A stretch of DNA of 64,000 bases, from contig JAUSMA010000068.1 in the NCBI GenBank assembly GCA_030645475.1, forward strand, positions 62,001 through 126,000. The letters run 5' to 3'. The position numbers were made by a program, and so were the translations under genes. Origin of the DNA: Nitrospirota bacterium. GTDB taxonomy: Bacteria > Nitrospirota > Nitrospiria > Nitrospirales > Nitrospiraceae. The notes under the pieces are model-generated. The model was not told where the DNA came from. It ran no database searches and was given only the letters and a program-made list of their open reading frames with translations. The first letter of the stretch is position 1. Every line of letters begins with the position of its first letter. Shown here one piece after another: positions 8,469-50,053 of this stretch.

Positions 8469-8593
8469 CAGGATGCTCAAAAAGGCCGTCAGCAAGGCCG
8501 CAGCCGATGATAGCACCGGAGGCGTAGCCTCTAGGCTACGTTGAGGATGCTGTCGAGGCGAGAACGAAGCTGGCGGACTTTTTCAGCATCCTG
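8469..8593. repeat. Dispersed inverted-repeat element, copy 3
   Basis: Canonical copy. Left end CAGGATGCTCAAAAAGGCCG, right end the inverse finishing TTTTTCAGCATCCTG, centre GTAGCCTCTAGGCTAC. It fills the gap between convergent rsmE and the Ycf48-like gene, where a long hairpin could serve as a two-way terminator. Confidence 0.88.
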
Positions 8594-8600
8594 CCAGCCA

Positions 8601-28015: not shown

Positions 28016-28900
28016 CTACCCTCTTCGGGCTGAACCTTTGCGCGGATAGTTTAGTGCCAGGGTCAGCAAGGTATCTTGCATGCGATCCGGCAACCACTTC
28101 ACCATCCAAGCTCGTAACTTGGCATCGTTCCCCACGAGATAACGGGTTTTCGGGCAAGCGGCCGTCAGCGCATGATGCACCGCTCGAACCACCGCATCCG
28201 GTGAGATCGCCCGCTCAGCAGACTGGGCAACCGCTTCACGAACTCGACTCACCGCCTCACCATAGAGAGCCTTAGCCTCATCGCCCGCCAAGGCTTCAAG
28301 CTCCTGTGCTGCCTTGCCTGATTTCTCCCATATGGGTGTGGCAATGGCTCCCGGTTCGATAATCGACACCTGGATTCCCCAGGGTTGCAGCTCCATTCGT
28401 AACGCGTCCGTCAGCGCCTCGAGCGCATACTTCGAGGCCGAATAGGGACCCAACAAAGGAATGGTGCCGCAACCGGCAATCGACCCCATGTTCACGATTC
28501 GGCCATGGCCCAGTCGGAGCAACGGGAGGAACGCCTGTGTCACGGCGATCTGCCCGATCACGTTAACCTCAAGCTGCGTCCGGAGTTGCGAGAGAGGAAT
28601 CACTTCGAGCGGACTCCCGACAACGATCCCGGCATTATTGACGAGTCCACCAAGACCAGCCTCGCCGACAATCCGCTGCACCACTTCAAGAGATCGTGCG
28701 ATCGACGGCTCGTCTGTGACATCGAGTAGGATCGGGACAAGTGACGGGCCAACCTTCGCAACCAACGCCTCCCCTGCCCGAGGATCGCGCACTCCGGCAA
28801 ATACCGTCATCCCACGACTAGCGCAATCGAGAGCACAAGCCGCACCGATGCCGGTCGAAGCACCGGTCACAACAACAGTCATCTGGTTGATTTGGTTCAT
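28016..28900 (-). CDS. SDR-family oxidoreductase
   Basis: Short-chain dehydrogenase, 294 residues from the ATG at 28900. That start has GGAG eight bases upstream; the frame runs on to 29167 without family sequence. The Rossmann nucleotide site is TGASTGIGAACA, then NNAGIV, the catalytic Ser in VNMGSIAGCG, and Tyr-Lys in YSASKYALEAL. PWGIQVSIIEPGAIATPIW is typical of classical SDRs acting on hydroxy-lipids or sterol-like substrates; substrate here unknown. The start codon lies inside a 9-bp tandem repeat, so the N-terminus reads as repeated Asn-Gln codons. Confidence 0.88.
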   Translation of the reverse strand: MNQINQMTVVVTGASTGIGAACALDCASRGMTVFAGVRDPRAGEALVAKVGPSLVPILLDVTDEPSIARSLEVVQRIVGEAGLGGLVNNAGIVVGSPLEVIPLSQLRTQLEVNVIGQIAVTQAFLPLLRLGHGRIVNMGSIAGCGTIPLLGPYSASKYALEALTDALRMELQPWGIQVSIIEPGAIATPIWEKSGKAAQELEALAGDEAKALYGEAVSRVREAVAQSAERAISPDAVVRAVHHALTAACPKTRYLVGNDAKLRAWMVKWLPDRMQDTLLTLALNYPRKGSARRG

Positions 28901-28933
28901 CTGGTTTCTCCGGTTGATCTGGTTTGTCTGGTT
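28880..28933. repeat. Six tandem 9-bp repeats over the SDR start
   Basis: Read on the minus strand the units are variants of AACCAGATG, period exactly 9 bp, six copies. Two units supply ATG codons used or usable as starts. From 28934 to 29243 I see no gene; the stretch is the upstream region of the divergent ppx gene and is AT-rich near its end. Confidence 0.8.
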
Positions 28934-29243
28934 ATTTGGCTGAACAAAGCTAACTGATGAACCAGTCAAACAAGACAGGCGAGAGTACCATGACGGCCCG
29001 AGAGAGGGCAGCGCACCAGGATGTAACCAAGAATTAACCCTCACAACCTTGACAGGCCACTGCCAGTTCATTATGGTTTCTGACGCCCTTGCAGACCCTG
29101 CCCTACTCATTGCATTGGCGAAGAGATTTCCGTCTAGCCGGTGTAATGAATACAGACCAGTGCGCATGGAATATCAAAACATCAACATCGTGAACACATT
29201 CATGTTTGCTCCGTAAATACTTGTTTTACTGATATTATTTATC

Positions 29244-30797: not shown

Positions 30798-31543
30798 GCA
30801 ACCAACCACCTCCACTGATGACGCCCCATCCCTACCCGGGCAAACTTATCATCGTCGAGGGCATCGACGGTTCCGGCAAGAGCACACAACTCCTCCTGCT
30901 GCATAAGTGGCTGGAGTCGAAAGGCCACAAAGTCTTCTTCACGGAGTGGAACTCCTCGGAACTCGTCAAGGACACGACCAAGCGGGGCAAAAAGAACAAA
31001 AGCCTGACGCCGACCACGTTCAGCTTGCTGCACGCAACCGACTTTGCCAGCCGTCTATACCACGACATCTTGCCCCCGCTCAAAGCCGGCATGATCGTCC
31101 TGGCCGACCGTTATATGTATACCGCCTTCGCGCGTGACGTAGTCCGCGGCGTGTCACCCGAATGGATTCGTAAGCTCTACAGTTTCGCGATTACCCCGGA
31201 CATGGCCTTCTATTTCAAAGTGCCGATCGAAGTCGCTATCACGCGGCTCCTCGGCGGCACGCGCGGACAATTCAAATACTACGAAGCCGGCATGGACATG
31301 AACCTGAGCCCGGACGTCACCGAAAGCTTCCGTCTCTTCCAATCGAGCATCCTGTCGCAGTACGAGAAGATCGTCGATGAATGTCAGCTCATCACGTTGG
31401 ATGCGACGAAAGACATCGAAGCCCAGCAGAACGACATGCGCCGCCTCGTCGGAGAGGCGCTCACAGACTACAAACCAAGACGGGGCACCCATGGTCGACG
31501 CACAGTATTTTGGCGACGGTTTGACGTACCTAAATCCGAGTGA
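30794..31543 (+). CDS. tmk: Thymidylate kinase-like protein 1
   Basis: P-loop NMP kinase; dTMP kinase makes dTDP for DNA synthesis. 249 residues. Walker A is GIDGSGKST at 23-31 with Lys29. The DRY motif is in VLADRYMYTAFARD, and FKVPIEVAITRLLGGTRGQFKYYEAGMDM covers the lid/base region, which differs from classical Tmk. Starts in the ppx stop codon and overlaps the next, paralogous gene by 53 bp. It may serve a special role if a standard tmk exists elsewhere in the genome. Confidence 0.82.
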   Translation: MSNQPPPLMTPHPYPGKLIIVEGIDGSGKSTQLLLLHKWLESKGHKVFFTEWNSSELVKDTTKRGKKNKSLTPTTFSLLHATDFASRLYHDILPPLKAGMIVLADRYMYTAFARDVVRGVSPEWIRKLYSFAITPDMAFYFKVPIEVAITRLLGGTRGQFKYYEAGMDMNLSPDVTESFRLFQSSILSQYEKIVDECQLITLDATKDIEAQQNDMRRLVGEALTDYKPRRGTHGRRTVFWRRFDVPKSE

Positions 31544-32225
31544 CCTCAAAGGGAAACTCATCGCCATCGAAGGTACCGACGGCGTCGGCCGCTCCACGCA
31601 CATCGAGATGCTGCAGGAATGGCTGGAGGTGCAGGGCTATGGCGTGATCACGACCGGCTGGACCCGTTCCAACCTCATGTCCAAAACGATCGAAATGGCC
31701 AAAGAAGGCAATATTCTCGACCGATGGTCGTTCAGTCTGCTCTACGCCACCGACTTCGCGGACCGCTTAGAACACGAAATCATTCCCGCGCTTCGCTCGG
31801 GCTTCATCGTCCTGGCCGACCGGTATATCTACACCGCCCTCGCGCGAGACTTTGTACGCAGCGGGAACCGCCAATGGGCCAGAGACGTCTTTGGGTTTGC
31901 CTTAGTTCCCGATCTCGTCTGTTATATGCGGATCGACGTCGAAACACTCGTGCTGCGCGTCATCGAAACCAAAGGCATGAACTTCTGGGAATCGGGAATG
32001 GACCTCCGGCTGGGCAACGATCTCTACGATAGCTTCAAGAAGTATCAGTCTCTCCTGATCAAGGAGTTCGACAAGATGGCGGAAGAGTTTCACTTCGAAG
32101 TGATCGATGCCAGACAATCGCCGGATGAGATTCAGGAGGAACTGCGCAACAAGATTCAGCCGCTGCTGACGACAAGACTACGAAGTCCTAAACTACCATC
32201 CGACCACCTGATCCATCCGGCCTAA
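31491..32225 (+). CDS. Thymidylate kinase-like protein 2 (altered P-loop)
   Basis: 244 residues from the ATG at 31491, which has GGGG just upstream; the longer frame to 31377 is unlikely as it overlaps the conserved end of gene 1. Clearly paralogous to the preceding gene along its length (FSLLYATDFADRLEHEIIPALRSGFIVLADRYIYTALARDFVR). Its Walker A reads GTDGVGRST, so the phosphate-binding Lys is Arg34. It may be a catalytically weak subunit pairing with protein 1. Convergent with sixA. Confidence 0.8.
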   Translation: MVDAQYFGDGLTYLNPSDLKGKLIAIEGTDGVGRSTHIEMLQEWLEVQGYGVITTGWTRSNLMSKTIEMAKEGNILDRWSFSLLYATDFADRLEHEIIPALRSGFIVLADRYIYTALARDFVRSGNRQWARDVFGFALVPDLVCYMRIDVETLVLRVIETKGMNFWESGMDLRLGNDLYDSFKKYQSLLIKEFDKMAEEFHFEVIDARQSPDEIQEELRNKIQPLLTTRLRSPKLPSDHLIHPA

Positions 32226-32789: not shown

Positions 32790-32953
32790 CGAGACTCCAC
32801 TCCTACGTCAATAGTCAATCAAATGATGCCCGGAGAATAACTGAACAACACAGGCCGGACAAGCGAGATCAGCGGAATCATGGCTTGCTCGTCGCGCCTG
32901 TCGCACTAGTCGTGCCCCTCGGCTGTCTGCTGCACCTAATCCGATTCCACTTC

Positions 32954-32967
32954 AATCAAAAGAGATT
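32954..32967 (+). promoter_or_regulatory. Predicted activator site AATC-N6-GATT upstream of the 33087 promoter
   Basis: AATCAAAAGAGATT, flanked by TC and CA, in the same context as the sites at 34381 and 46325. Its centre is about 128 bp upstream of the -24 element. A half site (GATTC at 32943) is centred 21 bp upstream if the same spacing is applied. Fits an enhancer for a sigma-54 activator. Confidence 0.5.
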
Positions 32968-33086
32968 CACTCCTTCACGAAGAGTCTCATCAACAGTGCG
33001 ACCTCACCATTCCGATCGCATACTTTTCACATCAAGAAAACAGCTGGTTAGGACAAACAGTTCGATGATCCTATGCGCAATCAATC

Positions 33087-33101
33087 TGGCATATCACTTG
33101 C
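33087..33101 (+). promoter_or_regulatory. Sigma-54 (-24/-12) promoter, site 1
   Basis: TGGCAT-ATCAC-TTGC: one mismatch from TGGCAC-N5-TTGC, with GG and GC separated by exactly 10 bases. Predicted start near 33113, 47 bases before the ATG at 33160. Apart from this promoter, its activator site and the leader, nothing else was seen between 32790 and 33159. Confidence 0.6.
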
Positions 33102-33159: not shown

Positions 33160-33246
33160 ATGGACTTTGCCGCAACATTAATCGTCTCCAACACCCTCAT
33201 GGCTGCCGTGATCTATCTGGTTGTGACCTGGATCTGGGAGGATTAG
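33160..33246 (+). CDS. 28-residue single-span membrane peptide
   Basis: A short frame (29 codons with stop) preceded by a strong AAGGAGGGA at 33145-33153, seven bases before the ATG. The peptide starts MDFAATLIV and has one hydrophobic span of about 22 residues ending in TWIWED. It is directly downstream of a sigma-54-like promoter. Size and design resemble regulatory or stress membrane micropeptides, but it matches none I know. The stop abuts a dispersed repeat. Confidence 0.6.
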   Translation: MDFAATLIVSNTLMAAVIYLVVTWIWED

Positions 33247-33370
33247 CAGGATGCTGAAAATGCCATCCAGCGGCATTCTCGCATCGCTCAGGCCCTCAAC
33301 GTACCACAAGGGTACGCCTTCGGCCCTTCACTCGCTGCGGCCTTGCTGGACGGACATTTTGAGCATCCTG
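33247..33370. repeat. Dispersed inverted-repeat element, copy 5
   Basis: CAGGATGCTGAAAATGCCAT at the left and the inverse ending ATTTTGAGCATCCTG at the right, with a central GTACCACAAGGGTAC. The orientation of the inner part matches copy 2. Begins on the base after the micropeptide stop codon. The gap 33371-33780 otherwise holds only a terminator (33610) and a 9-bp repeat array (33709). Confidence 0.85.
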
Positions 33371-33609
33371 CGAGAAATAGCTTCTCAAGTTCCAGTCACA
33401 GGAAAAACGAAGCAAGACGTAATCTCGCAGGGTACTGAGCATAGACATGAAACAAGAACTTCTAGCAGCCATAACGCAACCCCGAACAATGGCGAGACGT
33501 GGATCCGGCCCACCCTTCATCTGGCTGCCAACCGACAACAGCCCGATGCCCCCTCAGGTGTTGAGTCCTCTCACCCAGAGCACAGCGGCCGGCTACAGGT
33601 CTCCCCAAT

Positions 33610-34358: not shown

Positions 34359-34394
34359 GAATCCAATTGGATTCTCCCTCAATCCAATTAGATT
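34359..34394 (+). promoter_or_regulatory. Tandem predicted activator sites for the 34522 promoter
   Basis: Two copies of AATC-N6-GATT: AATCCAATTGGATT at 34360-34373, inside a perfect 16-base palindrome, and AATCCAATTAGATT at 34381-34394. Their centres are 21 bp apart, two helical turns. The downstream flank CAGCCAGAATCC is shared with the site at 46325. The proximal centre lies about 135 bp before the -24 element. Confidence 0.6.
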
Positions 34395-34521
34395 CAGCCA
34401 GAATCCGTCAGGGGCATCTATGGGGCATTCCATACCGGCGTCTATTCATTTGAAATCAGGAAAAACCTGCCATTTCGAATACATTCACGAAAGGCTTCTT
34501 ACAGGAGGCTCTAACTGCTGC

Positions 34522-34536
34522 TGGCACATCCATTGC
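34522..34536 (+). promoter_or_regulatory. Sigma-54 (-24/-12) promoter, site 2
   Basis: TGGCAC-ATCCA-TTGC, a perfect match to the core consensus with the required 10 bases between GG and GC. Predicted start near 34548. Confidence 0.65.
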
Positions 34537-34547
34537 GATACTCCTTG

Positions 34548-34621
34548 TCAGAAAGGCGCGAAACGAGAATCGAACAGGAGTGTCGCTTCAGTGACCGCCG
34601 AAACTGGCACTCCTTCTTTTT
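34548..34621 (+). ncRNA. Candidate sigma-54-dependent small RNA (~74 nt)
   Basis: Bounded by the predicted start 12 bases after the -12 element and by an intrinsic terminator: AGGAGTGTC at 34576-34584 pairs with GGCACTCCT at 34606-34614 (one G-T), with an inner CAGT/ACTG pairing, then TTCTTTTT. No start codon with a ribosome site lies inside. The rest of 34622-34901 shows no convincing gene. Existence and function are inferred. Confidence 0.45.
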
Positions 34622-34901
34622 GTTGATTTCCTCCTGAGGAAAGGCTCAGTCAATCAATGAAAGAGCATAGAAGCAACGGACGATTCTTCTCCCTCAAACC
34701 AAGATTGTTGCGATGCGCTGGGCCGAACCAAGCAATCATTCCACGAGACATCAACTCCACTCGCTCAGATAGACAGAGGACAACAGTCGTGGGAGCCACA
34801 CCCACTCAAGCCACGGGAGAGCCGATATCTCGCGGGAACTGGGAGCACTAATAGAAGAGCTTCACGAGCAAGAGCGGGCGGATGGCTCTCGATAAATGGG
34901 A

Positions 34902-35318
34902 TCAGCGAGCAACACCGAGAAGAACGGCGGGAACATCGCAGGACGGAAAAAGGAATGGCAACAGATCAGGATTCACGAGGGCGGGGTCGAGGCCGCGCAG
35001 CGTGGAAACGGAGCCACCATTCGTGTGAAGGGAGACAGATCCGTCCGCGTTCGTCGAGAGTGTAATCGACGAAGCCGATAATTCGCTTCCTGCGGGGAGC
35101 AATAAGAAGGCATCTGAACTTTTAGCGCCTGAATGACCAAGAGCCGGTTGAAAGATTTCCCCATGAAAGAACAGAGGAGCGTGAGAACTGGAAGCGATCG
35201 AAGCAGACGCAAGTGGGAGAGCTGTTCCGAGAGGGGCATCGTGAAGGCCAACGCTCAGACAACTACTAAGCGACGCAATAAAGATGAGCACGCACAGAAT
35301 ACGAAAACCAACAGCCAC
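34902..35318 (-). CDS. Putative lipoprotein of unknown function
   Basis: 138 residues read from GTG at 35318 with a strong GAGGGGAGGGG about six bases upstream, which supports the start. Residues 1-20 form a lipoprotein signal (RILCVLIFIASLSSC) with lipobox LSSC and Cys20. The mature protein is rich in Ser, Ala and Leu (SSHAPLFFHGEIFQPALGHSG; LPAGSELSASSITLSTNADGSVSLHTNGG). No family recognised. It is divergent from the metalloprotease gene, in AT-richer, gene-poor DNA. Confidence 0.55.
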   Translation of the reverse strand: MAVGFRILCVLIFIASLSSCLSVGLHDAPLGTALPLASASIASSSHAPLFFHGEIFQPALGHSGAKSSDAFLLLPAGSELSASSITLSTNADGSVSLHTNGGSVSTLRGLDPALVNPDLLPFLFPSCDVPAVLLGVAR

Positions 35319-35739: not shown

Positions 35740-37383
35740 ATGGACCTGCGCAATCGTGAAACGGCCAGAGTTGTACTAGCAGCAGTCTACCTGAGCACAT
35801 TTAGTACAGCCGTGCCGCACACTTATCCTTCGACAGAGACAGCATGGGCCCAGCCGACTACGGAAATCGAACCACCGACACCATTACCGCCGCTCCAGCC
35901 GCCCGCACTGGCCAATCCGCTGCAGGCAGGAGAACTTAACAGACTGCGGACAATCGCCCTCGAAGCTATTCAGAAATCCCCGATCCAATCCAAAACGGTT
36001 GTAGGGATTCACCACGTCCGACTCAATCCATTTGTTGTGCAACAGGTACTCAAGAGTAATCCTGCCAATTCGGCGCCGAAAGTTTTCGTTGAATTGCCGA
36101 ATAAGCAATCGGCCGTCATTGTCACGGATAGTCTTCAACCAGCACAGGACAGCGTGATGTGGAAAGGGCATGTCGAGGGTGTTCCAGGCAGCCGAGTCCG
36201 TTTCATGGTAAACCCAACGACCAACGCGATTTACGGATCAGTCGAGAAGGGTCGGTTCATCTATGAAATCAGGCCATCTCCCAGCGACACAAGTGTTATA
36301 GAAATCCTCGCCATAGATCCGAGCGGTTTCCCCCCGGAGCACGGAGCGCTCATACGGCAAGCGGCAGGCATGTCATCAGTGTTGAGGATGTTGGATGACC
36401 GAGTGAGTGGACCGTTAAAATTGACCGCCGGAGGCGACCCTCCAATGATCGATGTGATGATCTTGTATACAACGGCTGCAAGAGACCAGGATCCCAACGG
36501 CATCGCAGCTATGGCCTGCCAGGCTGTTGAAGATCTCAAAGAAGCATTTGCTAACAGCGGCATCCAGGCCACGGCCAGGCTGGTTCATCATGGCACAGCC
36601 GATAAATTTACGGAGGCAACGAGTCGGAGAATCAATGACAACCTCGATGCTTTACGGGATGCAGGCAACACCGCGAGCAACGACATTTTCGAGCTTCGCA
36701 AAGACCACAAGGCGGATGTTGTCAGTCTGTGGGTGAGCGACGCCCTCGGAACCGATTGTGGCATGTCGCCATACCTCGATAATAATCTGACCCCCAATGC
36801 CAATTTAGCCTTTTCCGTTGTTGTCCGTAAGTGCGCGCTCAGTAATCGCTCCTTCGTCCACGAGGTTGGCCATGTTCTCCAGGCGAATCATGACCGCTAC
36901 GTGGAGCAAGCTCGGAACAAGCCGGATTATAACTACGGATACGTGAAAGCCGACGAGGGATGGATGACCGTCATGTCATATCACCGGCCCGATTGTCCTC
37001 TTGAGGACATCCTCGACAAAAATGGCGACCCGGTCATCGAGAATGGGGTCAAGCAGCAGCGTCATGCTTGCAATCGCCGTCTCCATTGGTCGAACCCGTC
37101 TGTGGACGATCCAGTATGGGGAGACCCCATGGGTCGGACGCAAGGCTTTCCCATTCCTGCCAATGCGTGCACGGATAATGAACAGACACAATGGGATAAG
37201 TTTCAACAACAAAATCCTGTGATTAACTGCGACGGACCAGCTGACAACGCAAGAATTCTGAACAGCACGGTGACAACCGTAGCGAACTTCCGAACTGGCG
37301 GCATCCTTGGCAACGTGTCATGTGTAGCCAATAACACGCCTGATCCGCCACCGGCAGCCCCGACCAATCTTACAATTCAATGA
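35740..37383 (+). CDS. Exported metzincin (reprolysin-like) zinc metalloprotease
   Basis: 547 residues from the ATG at 35740, chosen because AAAGGGG lies six bases upstream. A signal peptide of about 35 residues is followed by a propeptide-like beta region (VFVELPNKQSAVIVTDSLQ; GSRVRFMVNP) and a catalytic domain: IDVMILYTTAARDQD, then HEVGHVLQANHD with zinc ligands His374, His378, His384 and Glu375, and Met412 in VMSY as the Met-turn. The usual metzincin Gly after the second His is Gln. The C-terminus is a Pro/Asn tail (NNTPDPPPAAP) that may once have led into another domain. 100 bp upstream of a secreted-protein gene and the TpsA operon. Confidence 0.85.
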   Translation: MDLRNRETARVVLAAVYLSTFSTAVPHTYPSTETAWAQPTTEIEPPTPLPPLQPPALANPLQAGELNRLRTIALEAIQKSPIQSKTVVGIHHVRLNPFVVQQVLKSNPANSAPKVFVELPNKQSAVIVTDSLQPAQDSVMWKGHVEGVPGSRVRFMVNPTTNAIYGSVEKGRFIYEIRPSPSDTSVIEILAIDPSGFPPEHGALIRQAAGMSSVLRMLDDRVSGPLKLTAGGDPPMIDVMILYTTAARDQDPNGIAAMACQAVEDLKEAFANSGIQATARLVHHGTADKFTEATSRRINDNLDALRDAGNTASNDIFELRKDHKADVVSLWVSDALGTDCGMSPYLDNNLTPNANLAFSVVVRKCALSNRSFVHEVGHVLQANHDRYVEQARNKPDYNYGYVKADEGWMTVMSYHRPDCPLEDILDKNGDPVIENGVKQQRHACNRRLHWSNPSVDDPVWGDPMGRTQGFPIPANACTDNEQTQWDKFQQQNPVINCDGPADNARILNSTVTTVANFRTGGILGNVSCVANNTPDPPPAAPTNLTIQ

Positions 37384-38398: not shown

Positions 38399-41251
38399 AT
38401 GAGACACACCCAGTCTCCAATTCGAATAACACGAGGGACCGCCTTTTCTGTCTTTGTGTTTCTTTGTTTTGGACTCTGGGCTCCATCGTCTCAGTCTGTA
38501 CACGCTGGCACGGCAGTCTCCCCGACTGGCGGGACAGGCAGTCCCGCCAGTCTTGGAACGATCGTCACCTCCGGAACCTCTGCCACTCCAACAAACCTGT
38601 GCACCGCAAACTGCGTTATCACGGGCGGGACCAAATCGGGGAACAACCTGTTTCACAGCCTAGGAGAATTGAACCTCGCGTCGTTCGACAACGCCCGGTT
38701 TCAGACAGGACTCGCAAACCCGATTCCTGACGCAACTGTGTCGAACATACTCGCCCGAATCACCGATCCACAGCCATCCAGTATTTTTGGAACCGTCGAC
38801 AGCGCTAGCTTCTATCCCTCGGCAAATCTTTATCTCTTGAACCCTAACGGCATCGTGTTCGGTCCAAATGCTTCACTCAACGTTGCCGGTTCAGTCACCT
38901 TCACAACGGCAAACTACCTACGCCTCGCAGAAGCCGACGGCTCAAACGCCGGCATTTTCCACGCAAGCCCGGCGATACCAAGCGTGTTCACAAGCGCACC
39001 TGTTTCCGCATTTGGTTTCCTTGGATCGAACCCGGCCGCCATCCGCGTTGAAGGAAGCACCTTGTCGGTTCAAGCTGGGCAATCAATTTCCCTTGTGGGT
39101 GGGAATCAAGGATTCACCTATGTCAACCCAGATACGGAAACGACCGTCTCGGTGCCCGCTGGTGTTACAGTTGGTGGGGGAGGCCTTTTCGCTTCGAGCG
39201 GACAAGTCAATATGGTAAGCGTCGCTTCTGCTGGCGAAGTGTTGGCTGCCGAGTTCCTGCCCGCTAACGGGCTGGCCATGGGGAACATCAGCCTCTCTCA
39301 AGGAGCCACGCTCGATGTTTCCGGCGATCCAGGAGGCACCGTCAGAATTCGAGGTGGTCAGTTTGAAATGGACCAGGCCTATATCTTTGCCGGATCGTCA
39401 GGCGACATCGACGGTGCCACAACAACTGTCAGCGTCCACGCGACTGAAGACATGCTGGTCAAAAATCAAAGCACCGTTGACGTGACAGGATTTGGAGCAG
39501 GCCGGACAGGCAACATTGAGATCGAGGCAAGAAGCCTGATGCTCACGGATGGTTCCATCATTGCAAATCAAGGCTTCGGCAATGCACCGGCCGGAAATAT
39601 CAGTCTGACAATTGAACAATCGCTCACTATGGAGGGAATTGACCCCTTTGGGAATGGCAGCTTGCTGCAAACCATTAACGCTGGGAGTGGGACAGGGGGA
39701 ACCATTGCTCTTACCCCCCTGAACACGCAAACCTCCCCTACTGTCACGATTGCTGATGGTGGAAAGGTCCTGACTCAGGCTGGAGGTCAATCGGCCGCAG
39801 GCGATATCACGATGAACGTCACGAACCTCATAATTGCCACTGGCGGTTCTATTCAAACCCTAGGTGGTGATACTGCTTCGTCGGGGAACATTCATCTTAT
39901 CGCCACAGGCGAAGTGTCACTTATGGGGCAAGGAGACTTCGCAACGCGAGTCCTCAACCAGAACAGCGGACCCGGCGGAACTGGGTGGATCAAAATCGAG
40001 CCGGGAATCCTGTCGCTCACAAACAAAGCACAGATTCTCAGCGAAACGACATCGATTCCTGGCAATCTTCCGCCTACCGATCCAAAAGTCTTGATTGCGG
40101 CTACCGACTCAGTGACGATCGCGGGGGGAAGCAGAGTTGATCTGAGCAACAACGCAAGCAGTGTCGGCTCCCTTGATATCAGCGCAACAAACACCATTGC
40201 CGTTTCGGATCTCGGATTGATCAACACAAGCACGATCGGCCAGGGAAACGCTGGCGCCATCAACCTCACGGCGCGTAACGTATCCATGACAAGCGGCGGC
40301 CAGATCAATAGCCTCACGCAGGGCACCGCAGCCACTGGCACGGGAGGCGACATTTCCATCGTCGCAACAGAAAGTATTTCGCTTTCCGGCAGGGGAACGA
40401 ACTCACTCGGAACCGTCACACCCACTGCTGTTCAGAGCGGCAGCCTCTTTAACTCGCGCGGGAAGGGCGGTGACATTAACATCACCGCCGGGCAGGATAT
40501 ACGGCTCACCAATACTGCCTCTGTCTCGGCGAGCAGTACGGGAACCGGAAACGCGGGCAACATTACGGCTTTGGCCGGCGACGATTTCATGATGCAGAAT
40601 AGTTCGATCACGACGCAGGCGACGCAGGCCTCCGGCGGCAACATCAAAATCGGCGCTGCGGATCAGATCGTGATTCGAAACAGTCTCATCAGCGCATCGG
40701 TCATGGGCGGGAGCGGCAGCGGTGGGAACATCAGCATCGATCCGAATGTGGTTGTGCTACAGAATAGCCAGATTCTGGCCCAGGCCATCCAGGGCAACGG
40801 CGGGAACATCACGATCTTCACTCCCCTCTTTTTAGCCGACTCCAGCAGCCTAGTGAGTGCCTCGTCACAATTCGGCTTGAATGGAACGGTCACGATTCAG
40901 AGCCCGACGTCTAATTTGAGCGGCGGCTTGGGAACCTTAACGTCAAAGCCCCGTCAGGCACAAAGTCTTTTGACTCAACGCTGTGCGGCCTTGGCTAACG
41001 GTCAGGCCAGCAGCTTCGTCGTCGCCGGACGTGAGCAGTTGCCCGCCGACCCAGGAGGCTGGCTGGCGAGCCCGCTCGCATTCGCTTCGTTAGACGAGAG
41101 CCTTGTCGCAGGCCATGCCGTTGGCTCTATCCCAACAATCACGGCGATACCTACCCATGACGACGGCACGGTCTCGCTCCGCCGGTTCACGCCGGCAGGG
41201 TTTTTAATGGCCAACTACGCCGATAGTGAGGCTACTGGGTGCCATTCGTAA
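38399..41251 (+). CDS. Two-partner secretion exoprotein (TpsA, filamentous-hemagglutinin-like)
   Basis: 950 residues, AAGGGGGA ribosome site. Signal peptide to about residue 38, then the TPS secretion domain: CTANCVITGGTKSGNNLFHSLGEL and LYLLNPNGIVFGPNASLNVAGSVTF. The rest is a right-handed beta-helix of Gly/Asn/Ser/Thr repeats (GNIxLTA, GGNIxI). Near the C-terminus is TQRCAALANGQASSFVVAGREQLPADPGGWL, a motif I associate with cyanobacterial-type hemagglutinin-like proteins. Presumably exported by the TpsB encoded next, whose gene overlaps by 13 bp. Passenger activity unknown; no toxin domain seen. Confidence 0.9.
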   Translation: MRHTQSPIRITRGTAFSVFVFLCFGLWAPSSQSVHAGTAVSPTGGTGSPASLGTIVTSGTSATPTNLCTANCVITGGTKSGNNLFHSLGELNLASFDNARFQTGLANPIPDATVSNILARITDPQPSSIFGTVDSASFYPSANLYLLNPNGIVFGPNASLNVAGSVTFTTANYLRLAEADGSNAGIFHASPAIPSVFTSAPVSAFGFLGSNPAAIRVEGSTLSVQAGQSISLVGGNQGFTYVNPDTETTVSVPAGVTVGGGGLFASSGQVNMVSVASAGEVLAAEFLPANGLAMGNISLSQGATLDVSGDPGGTVRIRGGQFEMDQAYIFAGSSGDIDGATTTVSVHATEDMLVKNQSTVDVTGFGAGRTGNIEIEARSLMLTDGSIIANQGFGNAPAGNISLTIEQSLTMEGIDPFGNGSLLQTINAGSGTGGTIALTPLNTQTSPTVTIADGGKVLTQAGGQSAAGDITMNVTNLIIATGGSIQTLGGDTASSGNIHLIATGEVSLMGQGDFATRVLNQNSGPGGTGWIKIEPGILSLTNKAQILSETTSIPGNLPPTDPKVLIAATDSVTIAGGSRVDLSNNASSVGSLDISATNTIAVSDLGLINTSTIGQGNAGAINLTARNVSMTSGGQINSLTQGTAATGTGGDISIVATESISLSGRGTNSLGTVTPTAVQSGSLFNSRGKGGDINITAGQDIRLTNTASVSASSTGTGNAGNITALAGDDFMMQNSSITTQATQASGGNIKIGAADQIVIRNSLISASVMGGSGSGGNISIDPNVVVLQNSQILAQAIQGNGGNITIFTPLFLADSSSLVSASSQFGLNGTVTIQSPTSNLSGGLGTLTSKPRQAQSLLTQRCAALANGQASSFVVAGREQLPADPGGWLASPLAFASLDESLVAGHAVGSIPTITAIPTHDDGTVSLRRFTPAGFLMANYADSEATGCHS

Positions 41252-43035
41252 ATCCATGCGCTCCTCGATCTATTGCCGACCAGGCAATCCATCGAGCGGC
41301 ACGATGGCTCATATTCTTTGGGGGCGCCATGCTGACCGCGTTGGCAGGAACCTCATCGTATGCGCAACAGGCCCTCCCTCCGATCTTCGATCCAACCGGG
41401 CGATCGGGTGAGCCGCCTGCGCCGCTGAAGAAAGAATTCAAGGCTCCCCCCGCAGCTCCCCTCCCCACCCTTCCGATCGTGCCCATCCCTCCAGCGGGAG
41501 ATGGGAAAAGTCCGCTGGGCCAGATCAGGGTCTTTGCCAGCTATATCCATGTGATCGGCAATACGGTCTTCACCGATGAGGAACTGGCAGAAGTCACCAC
41601 TCCCTACAAGAACCGGGTCCTGACGACTGAAGATCTTGAACGCCTCCGTCTCGCACTGACCCTCCTCTATGTGAATCGAGGCTACATCACCTCCGGCGCA
41701 ATCATTCCCGATCAGGATGTCACGTTCGGCGTGATTACCGTCCAGATCATCGAAGGTACCTTGTCCCGGATCGACATCGAAGGCCACGATTGGTTCCGCG
41801 CCGGTTATCTACGCGACCGCGTCGAGCGAGGCACACAGACGCCGCTGCGGCTTGAGCCATTACAAGAAAGGTTGCAGTTGCTGCAACAGGATCCGCGCAT
41901 CGAACAGATCAATGCCGAACTCCGTCCCGGCGACAAGCGTGGTGACAGCCTCTTGCACGTGAGAGTAAAGGAAGCCAGTCCCTGGAAGGCCTGGCTGGAC
42001 TTCAATAACTACCAAACCCCCGTGGTTGGAGCCGAACGAGGCCTGGCTACCATCGCGCACCAGAATGTGACCGGCAATGGCGACGCCTTCAGCTTCACCT
42101 ACGGCAAGTCGCGTGGTGTCAACCCCATCATCGACACCTCCTACTCACTCCCCTTGAATCGCTACGATACGACCTTCATCGCCTCCTACCGGCGCAACGA
42201 TTTCCTCGTCGTAGACAATGCCTTTCGCTTTCTCGACTTGAATGCGGAAGCGGAAATCATCGGCTTCACGCTCCGGCAGCCGATCTATCGAACCGTCTCC
42301 GATGAGTTCGCCATCGCGATCACCGGCGAACGGCTGTACAACAAAATCACCTCGATCTTCGACGATATCCCCGGACAGCCGCTTGAGTTCATACCCGGTT
42401 CGACGAATACAGGGGTGAACACGGTGAGTGCGCTCCGTTTCACGCAAGAATATACGCACCGCACGCCTTCTTCCGTTATCGCCGCTCGATCCCGCTTTAG
42501 CCTAGGCATCGACGTTCTCGGCGCCACGATCAATAGCGGACCTGTTCCGGATGGACAATTCTTTTCATGGTTAGGACAGGTTCAAGCCGTGAAGCGGATG
42601 GACGAATGGGGAGGACTCCAAATCCTTGGCCGCATGGACATGCAGTTGGCGAACGACCGGCTCTTTCCCTTGGAACAGGTTCCAGTGGGCGGACGATTCA
42701 GTGTGCGCGGATACCGCGAAAACACACTCATACGCGACAACGCTTTCCTCGCGTCGGTCGAGACGCGTTATCCCCTCATGCGTTATGCCAGCGGAGAAGA
42801 TTTATTGCAGTTCGCGCAATTCGTGGATATGGGCCGGTCCTGGAATGCCAAAGGCACGACGCCCGATCCTCAAACATTGGCGAGTGTCGGACTGGGTGTG
42901 CGATGGAACATTCTGCCGCGCGATCGTGCGCGCTTCGAACTCTACTGGGGTGTGCCGCTGAATCATGTTCCTCACCCGCCGGGGAACTTGCAAGACCATG
43001 GAATTCATCTGCAGTTGGTCATTCAGGTGTTGTAA
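41239..43035 (+). CDS. TpsB outer-membrane transporter (ShlB/FhaC/HecB family)
   Basis: 598 residues from 41239; an ATG at 41329 is a shorter option that still includes the signal peptide (MLTALAGTSSYAQQ). A Pro-rich linker leads to two POTRA domains (IHVIGNTVFTDEELAEVTTPYKNRVLTTEDLERLRLALTLLYVNRGYI; VTVQIIEGTLSRIDIEGHD) and a 16-strand-type barrel. GGRFSVRGYREN is the conserved VRGY motif of the L6 loop, and the final strand ends HLQLVIQVL. It secretes TpsA across the outer membrane. Confidence 0.92.
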   Translation: MPFVNPCAPRSIADQAIHRAARWLIFFGGAMLTALAGTSSYAQQALPPIFDPTGRSGEPPAPLKKEFKAPPAAPLPTLPIVPIPPAGDGKSPLGQIRVFASYIHVIGNTVFTDEELAEVTTPYKNRVLTTEDLERLRLALTLLYVNRGYITSGAIIPDQDVTFGVITVQIIEGTLSRIDIEGHDWFRAGYLRDRVERGTQTPLRLEPLQERLQLLQQDPRIEQINAELRPGDKRGDSLLHVRVKEASPWKAWLDFNNYQTPVVGAERGLATIAHQNVTGNGDAFSFTYGKSRGVNPIIDTSYSLPLNRYDTTFIASYRRNDFLVVDNAFRFLDLNAEAEIIGFTLRQPIYRTVSDEFAIAITGERLYNKITSIFDDIPGQPLEFIPGSTNTGVNTVSALRFTQEYTHRTPSSVIAARSRFSLGIDVLGATINSGPVPDGQFFSWLGQVQAVKRMDEWGGLQILGRMDMQLANDRLFPLEQVPVGGRFSVRGYRENTLIRDNAFLASVETRYPLMRYASGEDLLQFAQFVDMGRSWNAKGTTPDPQTLASVGLGVRWNILPRDRARFELYWGVPLNHVPHPPGNLQDHGIHLQLVIQVL

Positions 43036-43049
43036 CGAGATAGGTGGAT

Positions 43050-43124
43050 AGGCTGAAGGCGTTCAGGGGTTAAGCATGCGTGACCATACAAAACTTCCAG
43101 CATTCAGCCTTCAGCCTAAACCCC
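43050..43124 (+). promoter_or_regulatory. Possible RNA pseudoknot over the CHAT gene start
   Basis: AGGCTGAAGGC at 43050-43060 is the exact inverse of GCCTTCAGCCT at 43107-43117, spanning the start codon. GGGGTT at 43066-43071, the ribosome site, is the inverse of AACCCC at 43119-43124. The two pairings interlock as an H-type pseudoknot. The 11-base sequence also resembles an inverted repeat at 53909, so it may be a dispersed repeat. Confidence 0.35.
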
Positions 43125-45409
43125 TTGTATGCCTGTTACTCAGCGCACTACTTCTGATTCCCTCCATGACGGCGTCTGGTTCAGGGGCCGGCTCATCTGC
43201 CGACGGCGCGATGACAGAAGGCACGCAGGCCTTTCAACGTGGCGCCTACGAAGAGGCGTTAGGACTGTGGAAAGATGCCGCACGGCAGTATGAGGGACAG
43301 GGCCGATCGCACGATCAGAGTCGCGCGCTCGTCTCTGCAGCACGAGCGGCTGAGTCGCTGGGCCAAACCAGACAGGCCCTCCAACTCCTTGAACTGGCCT
43401 TGGCTCTTGCGCAGCAGGCAGCGGACAGTCAGTGGGGGGCCACAGTCATGGCACAACTGGGACATACCTATCTGACGGCACGCCAGCTCGATGCCGCCTC
43501 GACTCATTTGACGAAAGCCCGTGAACTCATCAAGGAGAAATCATCGCCGGCGCTTGAGGCTGCTCTCCTCAACGACCTCGGGATTCTCGCTGCGCTCCAG
43601 AACCGTCCAGAAGAAGCCCTCACTCACTTTACGAACACCGTCCAGTTAGCCCAACAAGCAGGGCTGTCCCTTGTCGCACTGCATGCACGGCTGAATGCAG
43701 CACGAACAAGTTTGCAACTCCATCAGCCGACGAACAGCCGCATCTGGATCGACCAAGCCCTTGAACAAACCGATGCCTTGCCGGCATCTCGTGAGAAGGC
43801 TATTGCCCTAATGAACATCGGGCTGCTGTATCGCAATCTGCTCCCCTCCCTCCCGGACTTCCGTAGCCCGCTGACCCTCAGAGCGGCAGGAGCCTTACAA
43901 GAAGCGGCTGGCCTGGCTGAACAGATGGGCGATGCGCGCACCCTGTCGTTCGCCCTCGGACATCTCGGCCATCTCTATGAGTTGGAGGAGCGGCTGGACG
44001 AAGCCCTGGCCTTCACGAGACGCGCGATCTTTTCCGCGCAATCGGTCGATGCACCGGAGTCGTTGTACCGTTGGCAATGGCAACTCGGGCGACAGTTAGC
44101 TGCCACAGGGACGCTCGACGAGGCCATCGCCTCCTATCGACAAGCCACAAGCACGTTACAACCGATTCGTCAGGCCGTCGCCGTGGCTGCGGCAGACGCC
44201 ACCTGGTCGGATGAGAATCCGATACGCCCATTGTTTTTTGAGCTGGCAGATCTGCTGCTCCAGCGGGCCTCGCTGACAGAAGCGCAGCCGGCTGCCACGC
44301 AATACCTGTTAGCGGCCCGCGACGCCATCGAAGCCTACAAGGCCGCCGAACTGCGAGACTACTTCAAAGACGAATGTGTCGATGCGCTACAGGCCAGACT
44401 CACGAAATTCGATACCCTGGCGGCGAACACGGCTGTCATCTATCCCATTCTGTTCCCGACCAGACTGGAACTGCTGGTGAGCCTGCCCACAGGCCTCACC
44501 AGATTTGCCGTGCCGGTCGGTGCGGACATGCTCACGAAAGAGGTCCGCCTCTTTCGCCGCACCGTCGAAAAACGCACTACGCGGGAATATCTTGCGCATG
44601 CCCAACAGCTCTATGACTGGATGATTCGCCCGATCGAAACAGCACTGGCCCGTGAGCATATCACCACCCTGGTCTTTGTCCCGGATAGTTCACTCAGGAC
44701 GATTCCCATGGCGGCCCTGCACGACGGTGCCACATTTCTCATCAATAAATATGCCGTCGCCGTCACGCCAGGGCTCAACTTGACCGATCCACGTCCGATA
44801 GACCGGGAGCGGGTGAGGATGTTATCCAGCGGACTCACAGCAGCCGTGCAAGGATTTCCTGCCCTGCCATATGTCGCGGGTGAAATGAGCACGATTCAAG
44901 ACCTCTACCGCGGGGACCAGTTGTTGAATCGAGACTTCCTCACCACCAGACTGGAACATGAATTGCGGGATGGGCAGTATGGGATTCTTCATATCGCCAC
45001 CCATGGACAGTTCGCCACCGATGTGAATCAGTCCTTCTTACTGACGTTCGACGGAAAACTGACCTTGAACCAACTGGATCGGCTCATCGGATTATTCCGG
45101 TTTCGTCGAGAGCCGCTCGAATTGTTGACCCTCAGTGCCTGTCAAACAGGGGTAGGAGACGATCGAGCTGCCTTGGGTCTCGCTGGTGTCGCCATCAAGG
45201 CCGGCGCCCGCAGCGCGTTGGCGACGCTCTGGTTCATCAACGATGAGGCTTCGTCTGAGCTGGTCACTGAATTTTACAAGCAATTGCGCAACCCTAAGCT
45301 GTCAAAGGCACAAGCATTGCAACTCGCACAGCAGAGGCTCTTAGCAGATCGGGTCTATGAGCACCCGGCCTACTGGTCGGCGTTCCTCTTGCTGAATAAC
45401 TGGCTGTGA
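43076..45409 (+). CDS. Exported TPR-CHAT caspase-like protein
   Basis: 777 residues. An N-terminal signal segment (LVCLLLSALLLIPSMTASGSGA) is followed by about ten TPR-like helix pairs (GTQAFQRGAYEEALGLWKDAARQYEGQG onward). The C-terminal ~280 residues are a CHAT peptidase domain with catalytic His643 in LHIATHGQF and Cys689 in LSACQTGVGDD, plus GLAGVAIKAGARSALATLWFINDEAS. CHAT proteins are caspase relatives, some of which are activated proteases in defence. An exported one in a two-partner secretion operon could process TpsA or act at the surface. 40 bp after TpsB, and overlapped by the DUF928 gene. Confidence 0.9.
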   Translation: MRDHTKLPAFSLQPKPLVCLLLSALLLIPSMTASGSGAGSSADGAMTEGTQAFQRGAYEEALGLWKDAARQYEGQGRSHDQSRALVSAARAAESLGQTRQALQLLELALALAQQAADSQWGATVMAQLGHTYLTARQLDAASTHLTKARELIKEKSSPALEAALLNDLGILAALQNRPEEALTHFTNTVQLAQQAGLSLVALHARLNAARTSLQLHQPTNSRIWIDQALEQTDALPASREKAIALMNIGLLYRNLLPSLPDFRSPLTLRAAGALQEAAGLAEQMGDARTLSFALGHLGHLYELEERLDEALAFTRRAIFSAQSVDAPESLYRWQWQLGRQLAATGTLDEAIASYRQATSTLQPIRQAVAVAAADATWSDENPIRPLFFELADLLLQRASLTEAQPAATQYLLAARDAIEAYKAAELRDYFKDECVDALQARLTKFDTLAANTAVIYPILFPTRLELLVSLPTGLTRFAVPVGADMLTKEVRLFRRTVEKRTTREYLAHAQQLYDWMIRPIETALAREHITTLVFVPDSSLRTIPMAALHDGATFLINKYAVAVTPGLNLTDPRPIDRERVRMLSSGLTAAVQGFPALPYVAGEMSTIQDLYRGDQLLNRDFLTTRLEHELRDGQYGILHIATHGQFATDVNQSFLLTFDGKLTLNQLDRLIGLFRFRREPLELLTLSACQTGVGDDRAALGLAGVAIKAGARSALATLWFINDEASSELVTEFYKQLRNPKLSKAQALQLAQQRLLADRVYEHPAYWSAFLLLNNWL

Positions 45410-46239
45410 TTGGCATCATGAGCATGCTAGAGTACATCGGTGGACGCCCCTCACCGCTTCAACGACAGAGGTTCGGCGTGAAGACATCGGTCATCGTCAA
45501 CAGCGCATTGCTCATCATCCTCAGCCTGCCTGGCTTCAATTCAGGCGTAAACGCCACGTCTATCGCCGACCGGCCCATCGTCGCCCAATCCGATCAACGG
45601 GAAGAGCCGACGATGCCGTTCTATACCCCTCGGAAAAAGACCACACCCCGCGCACGAGTCGGAGGAGGCTTACGGGGAACGGATGGGAAAGACCCTGAAA
45701 TCGTGGCCCTGGTTCCCGACCATGTCGGCCTCACGGTGAAACAGGCGCCCTCCTTAAACTGGTTCCTCTCCAAGCCGACCTCCTTGCCCATTCGGTTTAC
45801 ACTCATCGACACCCGATCGGTCAAACCGTTGCATGAAGGCCTGATTCCCACACCGAATCATGCGGGCATCCAATCGCTAAATCTCAAGGATCTCGGGTTG
45901 ACCCTCGAACCGGAAGTGCAATATCGCTGGTATATCTCCGCCATTCGCAATTCGGAATCCCCGTCGCAGGATATCGTCGCCGGCGGGATCATCGAGCGCT
46001 GTGAATTCAACGCTTGCCTGGTGGAAACGGCCGTCGACCTCACCTGCGACCGGCAAAGCATTCTGCGAAATGCCGTGCGAGGATTCTGGTACGATGCCAT
46101 GGCCTGCCTCTGTGAGTTAATCGACGCGAATCCATCCGACCAGATCCTCCGGAGACAACGTGCCGCGCTGCTCAAGCAGATCGGTCTCCATGGGGTGGCA
46201 GACTGGGATCTTCGTTCAGCTCAAACCCCCATCCGCTAG
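45406..46239 (+). CDS. Exported DUF928 protein
   Basis: 277 residues from GTG at 45406, overlapping the CHAT stop by 4 bp; an ATG at 45418 is possible. A hydrophobic segment (SVIVNSALLIILSLPGFNSGVNA) is the export signal. The body matches DUF928 as I know it: ARVGGGLRGTDGKDPEIVALVPDHVGLTVKQAPSLNWFLSKPTSLPIRFTL, LEPEVQYRWYISAIRN, and DAMACLCELIDANPSD. In cyanobacteria DUF928 genes often accompany CHAT and hemagglutinin genes. Role unknown. Confidence 0.8.
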   Translation: MIGIMSMLEYIGGRPSPLQRQRFGVKTSVIVNSALLIILSLPGFNSGVNATSIADRPIVAQSDQREEPTMPFYTPRKKTTPRARVGGGLRGTDGKDPEIVALVPDHVGLTVKQAPSLNWFLSKPTSLPIRFTLIDTRSVKPLHEGLIPTPNHAGIQSLNLKDLGLTLEPEVQYRWYISAIRNSESPSQDIVAGGIIERCEFNACLVETAVDLTCDRQSILRNAVRGFWYDAMACLCELIDANPSDQILRRQRAALLKQIGLHGVADWDLRSAQTPIR

Positions 46240-46324
46240 CCCTGCCCTCATCACCCCGTTATTTGCTTTCTCTCGTGTGTGTGGTTGAACCAGATCAACC
46301 CTTTCCCGTCTCTTCGATCCGGTC

Positions 46325-46360
46325 AATCCAATTGGATTCAGCACAGAATCCTTTTCGATT
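46325..46360 (+). promoter_or_regulatory. Tandem predicted activator sites for the 46455 promoter
   Basis: AATCCAATTGGATT at 46325-46338 and AATCCTTTTCGATT at 46347-46360, centres 22 bp apart. The first is identical to the 14-base core at 34360, and the flank CAGCACAGAATCC parallels that site. The proximal centre lies about 103 bp before the -24 element. Confidence 0.6.
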
Positions 46361-46454
46361 CAGGCAAACCATTCATTCCTTCTACGACAGCCGCGCAAGA
46401 TCTATTTCTCGGCTAAAACCATCAACAACGATAGAAGCGCTGTACCGTCCTAGC

Positions 46455-46469
46455 AGGCACACAGCTTGC
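46455..46469 (+). promoter_or_regulatory. Sigma-54 (-24/-12) promoter, site 3
   Basis: AGGCAC-ACAGC-TTGC: matches the consensus except the first T, with exact GG-N10-GC spacing. Predicted start near 46481, 40 bases before the ATG at 46521. Confidence 0.6.
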
Positions 46470-46520: not shown

Positions 46521-46709
46521 ATGACACAGGAGATCATTGTGTGGGCGCTCCTTGCCGGATTGGTCGGCCTCATCTGGGTCATCGCAGTCAGTATCCTTAG
46601 TACCGACCATCCCTCCCAGCACAACCAACAAGGTGGTGCTCAGCCGGAGCACCGTAATGGATACAAACCACATGAACAGACAGCCCAGCATTCCAACACC
46701 CCAGCCTGA
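46521..46709 (+). CDS. 62-residue single-span membrane protein
   Basis: The ATG at 46521 is chosen because AAGGGAGG lies about ten bases upstream; an upstream in-frame ATG at 46488 lacks one. One transmembrane span near the N-terminus (IIVWALLAGLVGLIWVIAV) is followed by a hydrophilic His/Gln/Asn-rich tail (HPSQHNQQGG; HEQTAQHSN) that could bind metal. It is the first gene after the sigma-54-like promoter and overlaps the next gene by 53 bp. No family recognised. Confidence 0.6.
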   Translation: MTQEIIVWALLAGLVGLIWVIAVSILSTDHPSQHNQQGGAQPEHRNGYKPHEQTAQHSNTPA

Positions 46710-47184: not shown

Positions 47185-47306
47185 CAGGATGCTCAAAAAG
47201 GCCGTCCAGCAAGGCCGCAGCGAGCGAAGAGGCGAGGCGTACGCATCGGTACGTTGAGTCTCTTCGTGAAGCGAGAACGCCGCTGGCGGACTTTTTCAGC
47301 ATCCTG
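47185..47306. repeat. Dispersed inverted-repeat element, copy 6
   Basis: CAGGATGCTCAAAAAGGCCG at the left, the inverse ending TTTTTCAGCATCCTG at the right, centre GTACGCATCGGTAC. A fragment of a seventh end (GCAGGCTGCGGAAAAACTCG) lies at 47108-47127, and another solo end at 54482-54504. The gap 47089-47479 holds only this, the fragment, and the promoter at 47452. Confidence 0.88.
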
Positions 47307-47451
47307 CGAGAGGACGCCGATGAAGGCATGCGAGAGTTTCGAGAGTTCGAGCCTCGGCACAACCAGCGCATTCAAGCAGGATGCGCAATGGTTGACGTAT
47401 CGGGACCTGAACGATAGACACAGGGGACAGTTATCGCGATCGTATTCTGTT

Positions 47452-49072: not shown

Positions 49073-50040
49073 TGAGCACCATTATTGACATCGAGAAGCC
49101 CGTCTGTTCAGCATACGCCGTCACGGCCTGGGCAGTGGCAAGACTCGTCTTGTGGCTGGGACTCTCTTCCCTCTTCGTCTCCGAATCCGCCGCGATGGAC
49201 ATCGCGATCCTCCAATCTTCGGACATCGCGGCCTACCACGAGGCGATTGCTGGCCTAAAGGCCACCGGCCCGATAGGCGCGATCTATACCGAATACGATA
49301 TGCAAGGCGACCTGGACCTCGGCAAGAAGCTCGCGCGTAAGTTACGCGCATCCAATACATCGCTGGTGGTCGCCGTGGGGCTCAAGGCCGCGCTGGCGGC
49401 AAAATTAGAAATTATCGAGATTCCGATCGTCTACATGATGATCCTGGACCCGCTCAAACATCAGCTCACAGCCGGCAACATGACCGGCACATTGCTGGAG
49501 GTCCCCGTCGACCGGCAGCTCAAGATCATGCGGATGTTTTTCCCGACCCTCCGCCGGCTCGGGACGCTCTACGACCCCGCCAAATCGTCCTCGCGGGTGA
49601 GGGAGGCTGTGCGGCAATCCACCAACGCCGACTTTCAACTGAAGGGGCTTCCCGTCGAGAGTGAGAAAGACGTGCCGCAGCAGTTGCGTGTCTTACTCTG
49701 GGATGTGGAAGCCCTCTGGCTCATGCCCGACTCCACGGTACTGACGAACGAGTCCGTGCAATTCATCCTGGAATCGTCATTGGCGCGCCAGATACCTGTG
49801 ATCGGCTTCTCACCGGAGTTTACTCGTCTGGGAGGGCTGCTGAGCATGTCCGTCAACTATGGTGAAGTCGGTCGAGAGACCGGCCTGCTCGCCAAACGTA
49901 TTCTCGATGGGGAACGGCTGCTGCCGCTCAACCCCGTCCCGATCGAGCGCATCAAGATCACGATGAATCTTAAAACCGCCAAGTTCCTGGGCCTGACGTT
50001 TACGAAAGAGCTAACGAGTCTCATCGATGAAACCTATTGA
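49072..50040 (+). CDS. ABC-type periplasmic substrate-binding protein
   Basis: 322 residues with an N-terminal export segment (ARLVLWLGLSSLFVSESAA). The fold matches the ABC substrate-binding family PF04392: MDIAILQSSDIAAYHEAIAGLKATG, GLKAALAAKLEIIEIPIVYMMILDP, RLGTLYDPAKSSSRVREAV, and GLLSMSVNYGEVGRETGLLAKRIL. No transporter genes are near. It starts in the stop codon of the receiver-PAS gene and overlaps the histidine-kinase frame, so it likely presents a ligand to that kinase rather than to a transporter. Confidence 0.85.
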   Translation: MSTIIDIEKPVCSAYAVTAWAVARLVLWLGLSSLFVSESAAMDIAILQSSDIAAYHEAIAGLKATGPIGAIYTEYDMQGDLDLGKKLARKLRASNTSLVVAVGLKAALAAKLEIIEIPIVYMMILDPLKHQLTAGNMTGTLLEVPVDRQLKIMRMFFPTLRRLGTLYDPAKSSSRVREAVRQSTNADFQLKGLPVESEKDVPQQLRVLLWDVEALWLMPDSTVLTNESVQFILESSLARQIPVIGFSPEFTRLGGLLSMSVNYGEVGRETGLLAKRILDGERLLPLNPVPIERIKITMNLKTAKFLGLTFTKELTSLIDETY

Positions 50041-50053
50041 TGGGGACAGGCAT

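Follow-up and report, generated by a model that had tools for sequence, protein, structure and literature searches.

Introduction

One of the described systems closest to the one reported here is Prs (PrsK/PrsR/PrsT), a sigma-54 regulon of PEP-CTERM genes that has been reported in Proteobacteria (Haft 2006, PMC1569441). In this regulon, an upstream activator motif and a -24/-12 promoter precede many genes for exported proteins, the intergenic regions are large, and the regulator was identified through its matching phylogenetic profile (PMC1569441). The genus Nitrospira comprises major nitrifiers, comammox species included, which are hard to manipulate, and very little is known about how transcription is controlled in them.

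The DNA analysed here is a stretch of 64,000 nucleotides (the window) on contig C68 of a 3.75-Mb genome (G000), which was compared with relatives that are Nitrospira MAGs. The window contains paired activator sites upstream of sigma-54 promoters, which very probably constitute a local sigma-54/bEBP surface regulon of Nitrospira. The sites, their conservation and geometry, rpoN, and the co-occurrence and linkage of a bEBP were all computed directly. A literature search, which covered mostly papers available without subscription, returned no description of this regulon.

Operators and promoters in the window

There are three sigma-54 promoters (at 33087, 34522 and 46455) in the locus, and all three have tandem GAATC-N6-GATTC operators, with spacings of 21, 21 and 22 bp, respectively. 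The promoters are of the GG-N10-GC (-24/-12) type and lie in intergenic DNA; they are sorted into classes A to D by the sequence downstream of them. Promoter B (TGGCACATCCATTGC; 34522–34536, + strand) has the full consensus TGGCAC-N5-TTGC. Its operator 1 (GAATCCAATTGGATTC) is at 34359–34374, and its operator 2 (CAATCCAATTAGATTC) is at 34380–34395, 21 bp after operator 1; no strand is assigned to these or to the other operators. Promoter A (TGGCATATCACTTGC; 33087–33101, + strand) has a pair at 32932–32968 (GCACCTAATCCGATTC and CAATCAAAAGAGATTC), the two copies starting 21 bp apart at 32932 and 32953 and the copy at 32932 being degenerate. Promoter D (AGGCACACAGCTTGC; 46455–46469, + strand) has a pair at 46324–46361, starting 22 bp apart at 46324 and 46346. 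The AATC-N6-GATT cores are at 34360, 34381, 46325 and 32954.

Every site listed in an earlier note on this DNA was found again, including the palindrome pair at promoter B, the starts of which (34360 and 34381) are indeed 21 bp apart. The tandem operators at promoters A and D had been overlooked there: the copy at promoter A (32954/33087), which had been called weaker, is also a tandem pair, of which the first copy is degenerate.

Conservation of the module in Nitrospira

The arrangement palindrome-N105-135-TGGCAY-N5-TTGC is present in 18 of 32 genomes of the same genus, with zero matches for the reversed-pattern control, and a search for the tandem operator with two mismatches allowed adds five further genomes among the 32, again with no control matches. 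The fetched Nitrospira loci contain 53 distinct modules, in which the spacing of the operators is 21 bp (43 modules) or 22 bp (10 modules), and in 52 of the 53 the second operator starts 109–144 bp before the -24 box (TGG). For promoter B, the distance in the window and in G009 is about 10 bp, i.e., one helical turn, above the usual 131–135. Thus, the upstream activator sites are at a conserved distance and phase across species, and the search of related genomes for the palindrome with the promoter, proposed in the earlier note, bears out the regulon claim, as the module recurs in about 20 of them with fixed geometry.

When 84,980 species were scanned for the strict module (one genome each), the only matches outside Nitrospira MAGs were two short contigs, which carry the Nitrospira locus and are probably misbinned: one (L121), from a MAG labelled Pyrinomonadaceae SH2, matches the Nitrospira locus proteins at up to 71–76%, and the other (L126), from a MAG labelled Acidobacteria gp11 AA57, matches them at up to 100%. 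The module as a marker of comammox was rejected: amoA is absent from G000 and its distribution does not follow that of the module.

G004, G013 and G014 have further tandem operators away from the locus (L190, L204, L186, L206, L211, L213, L214). Those in G014 and at two of the G013 loci have a TGGCCTA-type -24/-12 promoter downstream; thus, the regulon may be wider in these genomes. At several class-B promoters (L048, L049, L056, L077, L083, L085, L093), the likely start site is inside an inverted repeat (GCCTCgtcaGGAGGC-like), which corresponds to CCTT...AAGG at promoter B in the window. This inverted repeat is possibly a repressor site or an element of the initial transcript.

The locus adjoins a conserved block (a ppx/gppA-like gene, two thymidylate-kinase-like genes and a histidine phosphatase gene) in most of the fetched genomes. 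The two adjacent thymidylate-kinase-like genes are 73% identical over 149 bp (31017–31165 versus 31729–31877) and seem to represent a tandem duplication that is kept across the genus. Two kinds of repeat are also seen. One, about 125 bp long, is dispersed and present in both orientations (1834–1961, 2803–2930, 8469–8597, 33243–33371 and 47185–47310); in relatives it is sometimes directly 3′ of class-B promoters. Runs of a short TGGTTGATCTGGTTCAT-like repeat occur between genes and behind sigma-54 promoters (L049, L050, where they are promoter-proximal, and 28882–28943 in the window); when over-called as coding, they read NQINQMNQ.

The candidate activator

The earlier note had named rpoN as a point to check, and the genome does contain it: in G000, a 507-codon frame is at C17:19029, and rpoN was found in 31 of the 32 genomes. 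The probable cognate activator is encoded at 52408–53853 (+ strand) and is, by domain search, a bEBP of the NtrC type, consisting of a response regulator, a sigma-54 AAA+ domain and a Fis HTH. It is the single bEBP among the window genes scanned, and a search of its own genome for the sigma-54 AAA+ domain revealed no other bEBP in the window. Adjoining it is the gene for its probable partner, a histidine kinase (HAMP-GAF-HisKA-HATPase by domain search; 50027–52336, + strand).

G000 has 21 strong bEBPs, and the co-occurrence profile covers the 52408–53853 protein only. Its orthologues (at least 79% identity) are present in 20 of the 23 operator-positive genomes and in one of the nine operator-negative genomes (Fisher p = 1.3e-4, which is indicative only, as the genomes are related and non-independent). 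In 11 genomes (G000, G005, G006, G009, G012, G015, G019, G023, G024, G041 and G043), the bEBP is within about 26 kb of the module. The HTH recognition helix, LQRTYLTKLL, is invariant in the orthologues that were read through that region. By co-occurrence and linkage, then, a bEBP with a sigma-54 AAA+ domain and an HTH tracks the sites, and it is likely that this protein binds the operators. An orthologue is also present in G047, where the operator was not found. A bEBP gene behind a class-B promoter in G044 was considered as a case of autoregulation and rejected, as its product shares only 42% identity and does not qualify as the orthologue.

Predicted products of the promoters

Downstream of promoter A there is a gene for a 28-aa membrane protein (MDFAATLIVSNTLMAAVIYLVVTWIWED; 33160–33246, + strand), which is kept in relatives as a membrane protein of 28–30 aa ending in VV[TA]WIW[EG]D. 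Downstream of promoter D, a 62-aa single-TM protein (MTQEIIVWALLAGLVGLIWVIAV...; 46521–46709, + strand) is kept. Class C, which is absent from the window, has a secreted protein that starts with MYKN and is about 85 aa long. The families of 28–30 and about 62 aa have no match in Pfam, and against NCBIfam the 62-aa protein alone gave a match, below the cut-off (E = 0.049, 12 bits versus 626).

The first protein encoded on the transcript from promoter B is probably a conserved one of 64 aa (MKEHRSNGRFFSLKPRLLRCA...; 34657–34851, + strand), with homologues in G009, G012 and G008. The open reading frame (ORF) is seen in four genomes, in which indels preserve the frame; omega is 0.36–0.48 in divergent pairs and 0.94 in a close pair with only 16 changes, and in the core shared with G008 the differences are at third codon positions only. 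Beyond it is a conserved lipoprotein-like gene (34902–35318, - strand) without a Pfam match, which was seen in four genomes, in varying position but each time antisense to sigma-54 transcription.

Then follows a secretion cluster on the + strand: a metzincin protease (Reprolysin_5; 35740–37383), which is its first large gene; a TpsA-like exoprotein with a TPS secretion domain and an FHA N-terminus (38399–41251); a TpsB transporter with POTRA_2 and ShlB domains (41239–43035); a TPR-CHAT protein (43076–45409); and a DUF928 protein (45406–46239). A TpsA with a TPS domain thus adjoins a TpsB with POTRA_2/ShlB, as in two-partner secretion. The protease position is occupied by a metzincin in the window and by subtilases in G009, G024, G019 and G005. 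In several genomes, a class-B promoter is upstream of the protease, TPS, CHAT and DUF928 cluster. In the window and in G009, the antisense lipoprotein-like gene separates promoter B from the protease gene, which makes read-through from promoter B into the operon uncertain in these two; in G018, G019 and G005, there is no such gene between them.

Alternative explanations

If the palindromes and GG-N10-GC matches had arisen by chance or from repeats, without regulatory meaning, then single palindromes would be expected to look as they do: AATC-N6-GATT occurs at 56 sites in the 3.75-Mb genome, close to the frequency that shuffles predict, and a genome-wide regulon of single palindromes was rejected for this reason. 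Dispersed repeats, moreover, are common in the window. However, the random scatter that the earlier note had considered applies to the single palindromes and not to the tandem pairs with a sigma-54 site: the window has three such pairs, each with a sigma-54 site downstream, and 60 dinucleotide-preserving shuffles of the window gave a mean of 0.1 tandem pairs and zero complete modules. Together with the empty reversed-pattern controls, the geometry kept in about 20 genomes, the differing sequences downstream of the modules and the presence of rpoN, this upholds the argument that the co-occurrences are not fortuitous, and makes chance virtually out of the question. A different alternative concerns the activator: the operators might be bound by another bEBP, the 52408–53853 protein regulating something else. 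A paralogue of about 52% identity shares the LQRTYL recognition helix and could recognise these operators as well; it occurs in G042, G014 and G045, three operator-bearing genomes in which no 52408 orthologue was detected (the assemblies are 79–95% complete), and may explain the operators there. However, the paralogue is also found in G001, G002, G003 and G011, which lack operators, whereas the 52408 orthologue tracks the operator and shows linkage to the locus, so that another activator is unlikely.

Promoter B had been read in the earlier note as driving a terminator-bounded RNA of about 74 nt, and it could in principle make a stand-alone regulatory small RNA ending at the 34576–34621 hairpin (+ strand), like the sigma-54-driven Qrr RNAs. 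There is indeed a GC stem followed by TTCTTTTTG at 34576–34621, about 75–100 bp after promoter B, and 34548–34621 contains no ORF. However, the supposed intrinsic terminator folds no better than shuffles (z = -0.59), has no match in Rfam and is not listed by a terminator scan, which allows loops of 3–8, the loop here being larger. The conservation that had been proposed as a check fails: in G009, the closest relative (87% identical over the region), the left arm is AGGAATTTC versus AGGAGTGTC in the window, which reduces the stem, the T-run is TTCCATGTATTG (CCATGTATTG) versus TTCTTTTTGTTG, and the counterpart of the segment folds differently, while in G012 nothing of the hairpin or the T-run remains. 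Thus, a conserved terminator-bounded noncoding transcript of the Qrr-like kind is not found at this site. The claim that no translatable frame is present holds for 34548–34621 and not beyond, as the conserved ORF starts 36 bp after the hairpin, at 34657; furthermore, class-B promoters elsewhere precede coding genes or repeats rather than a hairpin element. On fold, Rfam, non-conservation and the downstream ORF, the small RNA was rejected as the main reading and is very unlikely, the regulon to which it had been attached being strongly supported. A conserved ORF behind an unconserved hairpin makes an mRNA with a leader the more likely transcript. Most likely, then, the output of promoter B is an mRNA for a small protein rather than a small regulatory RNA, and the 74-nt RNA would be at most a locally terminated leader.

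Proposed mechanism and significance

The kinase encoded at 50027–52336 probably phosphorylates the two-component bEBP encoded at 52408–53853, which would then bind the GAATC-N6-GATTC operators in pairs, the two sites of a pair being two helical turns apart and thus on the same face of the DNA. From its position 109–144 bp upstream of the -24 box, the bEBP could contact the sigma-54 polymerase by looping of the DNA, and the activated polymerase would open the three promoters A, B and D, all of which are predicted from their sequence to fire. Promoters A and D would give rise to the tiny single-pass membrane proteins, and promoter B to an mRNA in which a leader of about 110 nt precedes the frame of the 64-aa basic protein; in relatives, the promoter B transcript would also cover the downstream protease/two-partner-secretion/CHAT operon. 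The output of the regulon may thus be a surface or envelope programme. More specifically, it is possible, if rather doubtful, that this is a previously undescribed envelope programme peculiar to Nitrospira, in which tiny membrane proteins (single-pass, 28–30 and about 62 aa) and the protease/adhesin/CHAT cluster are co-activated by one dedicated bEBP, with the hairpin of the promoter B leader as a strain-specific attenuator.

The regulon offers a defined operator, a defined promoter geometry, a likely activator and a short list of targets, and is therefore directly testable. The literature search returned a single study in which Nitrospira sigma factors were expressed; it expressed rpoN in E. 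coli (PMC8553950), which makes a heterologous reporter test practical. The regulon further suggests a surface or secretion programme and draws attention to families of tiny membrane proteins that are outside all family models.

Comparison with known systems

With the LuxO–sigma-54–Qrr circuits of Vibrio, the Nitrospira locus shares a bEBP, sigma-54 and possibly a short transcript, but promoter B has a conserved ORF downstream instead of a conserved small RNA. Membership of the 52408–53853 bEBP in LuxO was rejected (339.5 versus a cut-off of 800). With two-partner secretion systems (TpsA/TpsB, of the FhaB/FhaC type), it shares an exoprotein with a TPS domain that adjoins a POTRA_2/ShlB transporter and is accompanied by a secreted protease; in Nitrospira, however, these genes form part of a CHAT/DUF928 cluster behind a sigma-54 enhancer module, and the cargo varies between genomes.

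The likeness to Prs comprises the same bEBP architecture, a conserved enhancer motif, a sigma-54 promoter, exported products and a regulator matched by its profile. In contrast to Prs, the Nitrospira system has a tandem 16-bp palindrome as its operator, and its targets comprise tiny TM proteins together with a two-partner-secretion/protease operon. Against the PrsR model (TIGR02915), the 52408–53853 bEBP scores 397.6 bits, under the cut-off of 502.6, and the small products and cluster proteins scanned have no PEP-CTERM signals; membership in the Prs/PEP-CTERM regulon was rejected on these two grounds. The best reading is thus of a Nitrospira regulon that stands outside the Prs/PEP-CTERM regulon and resembles it in function.
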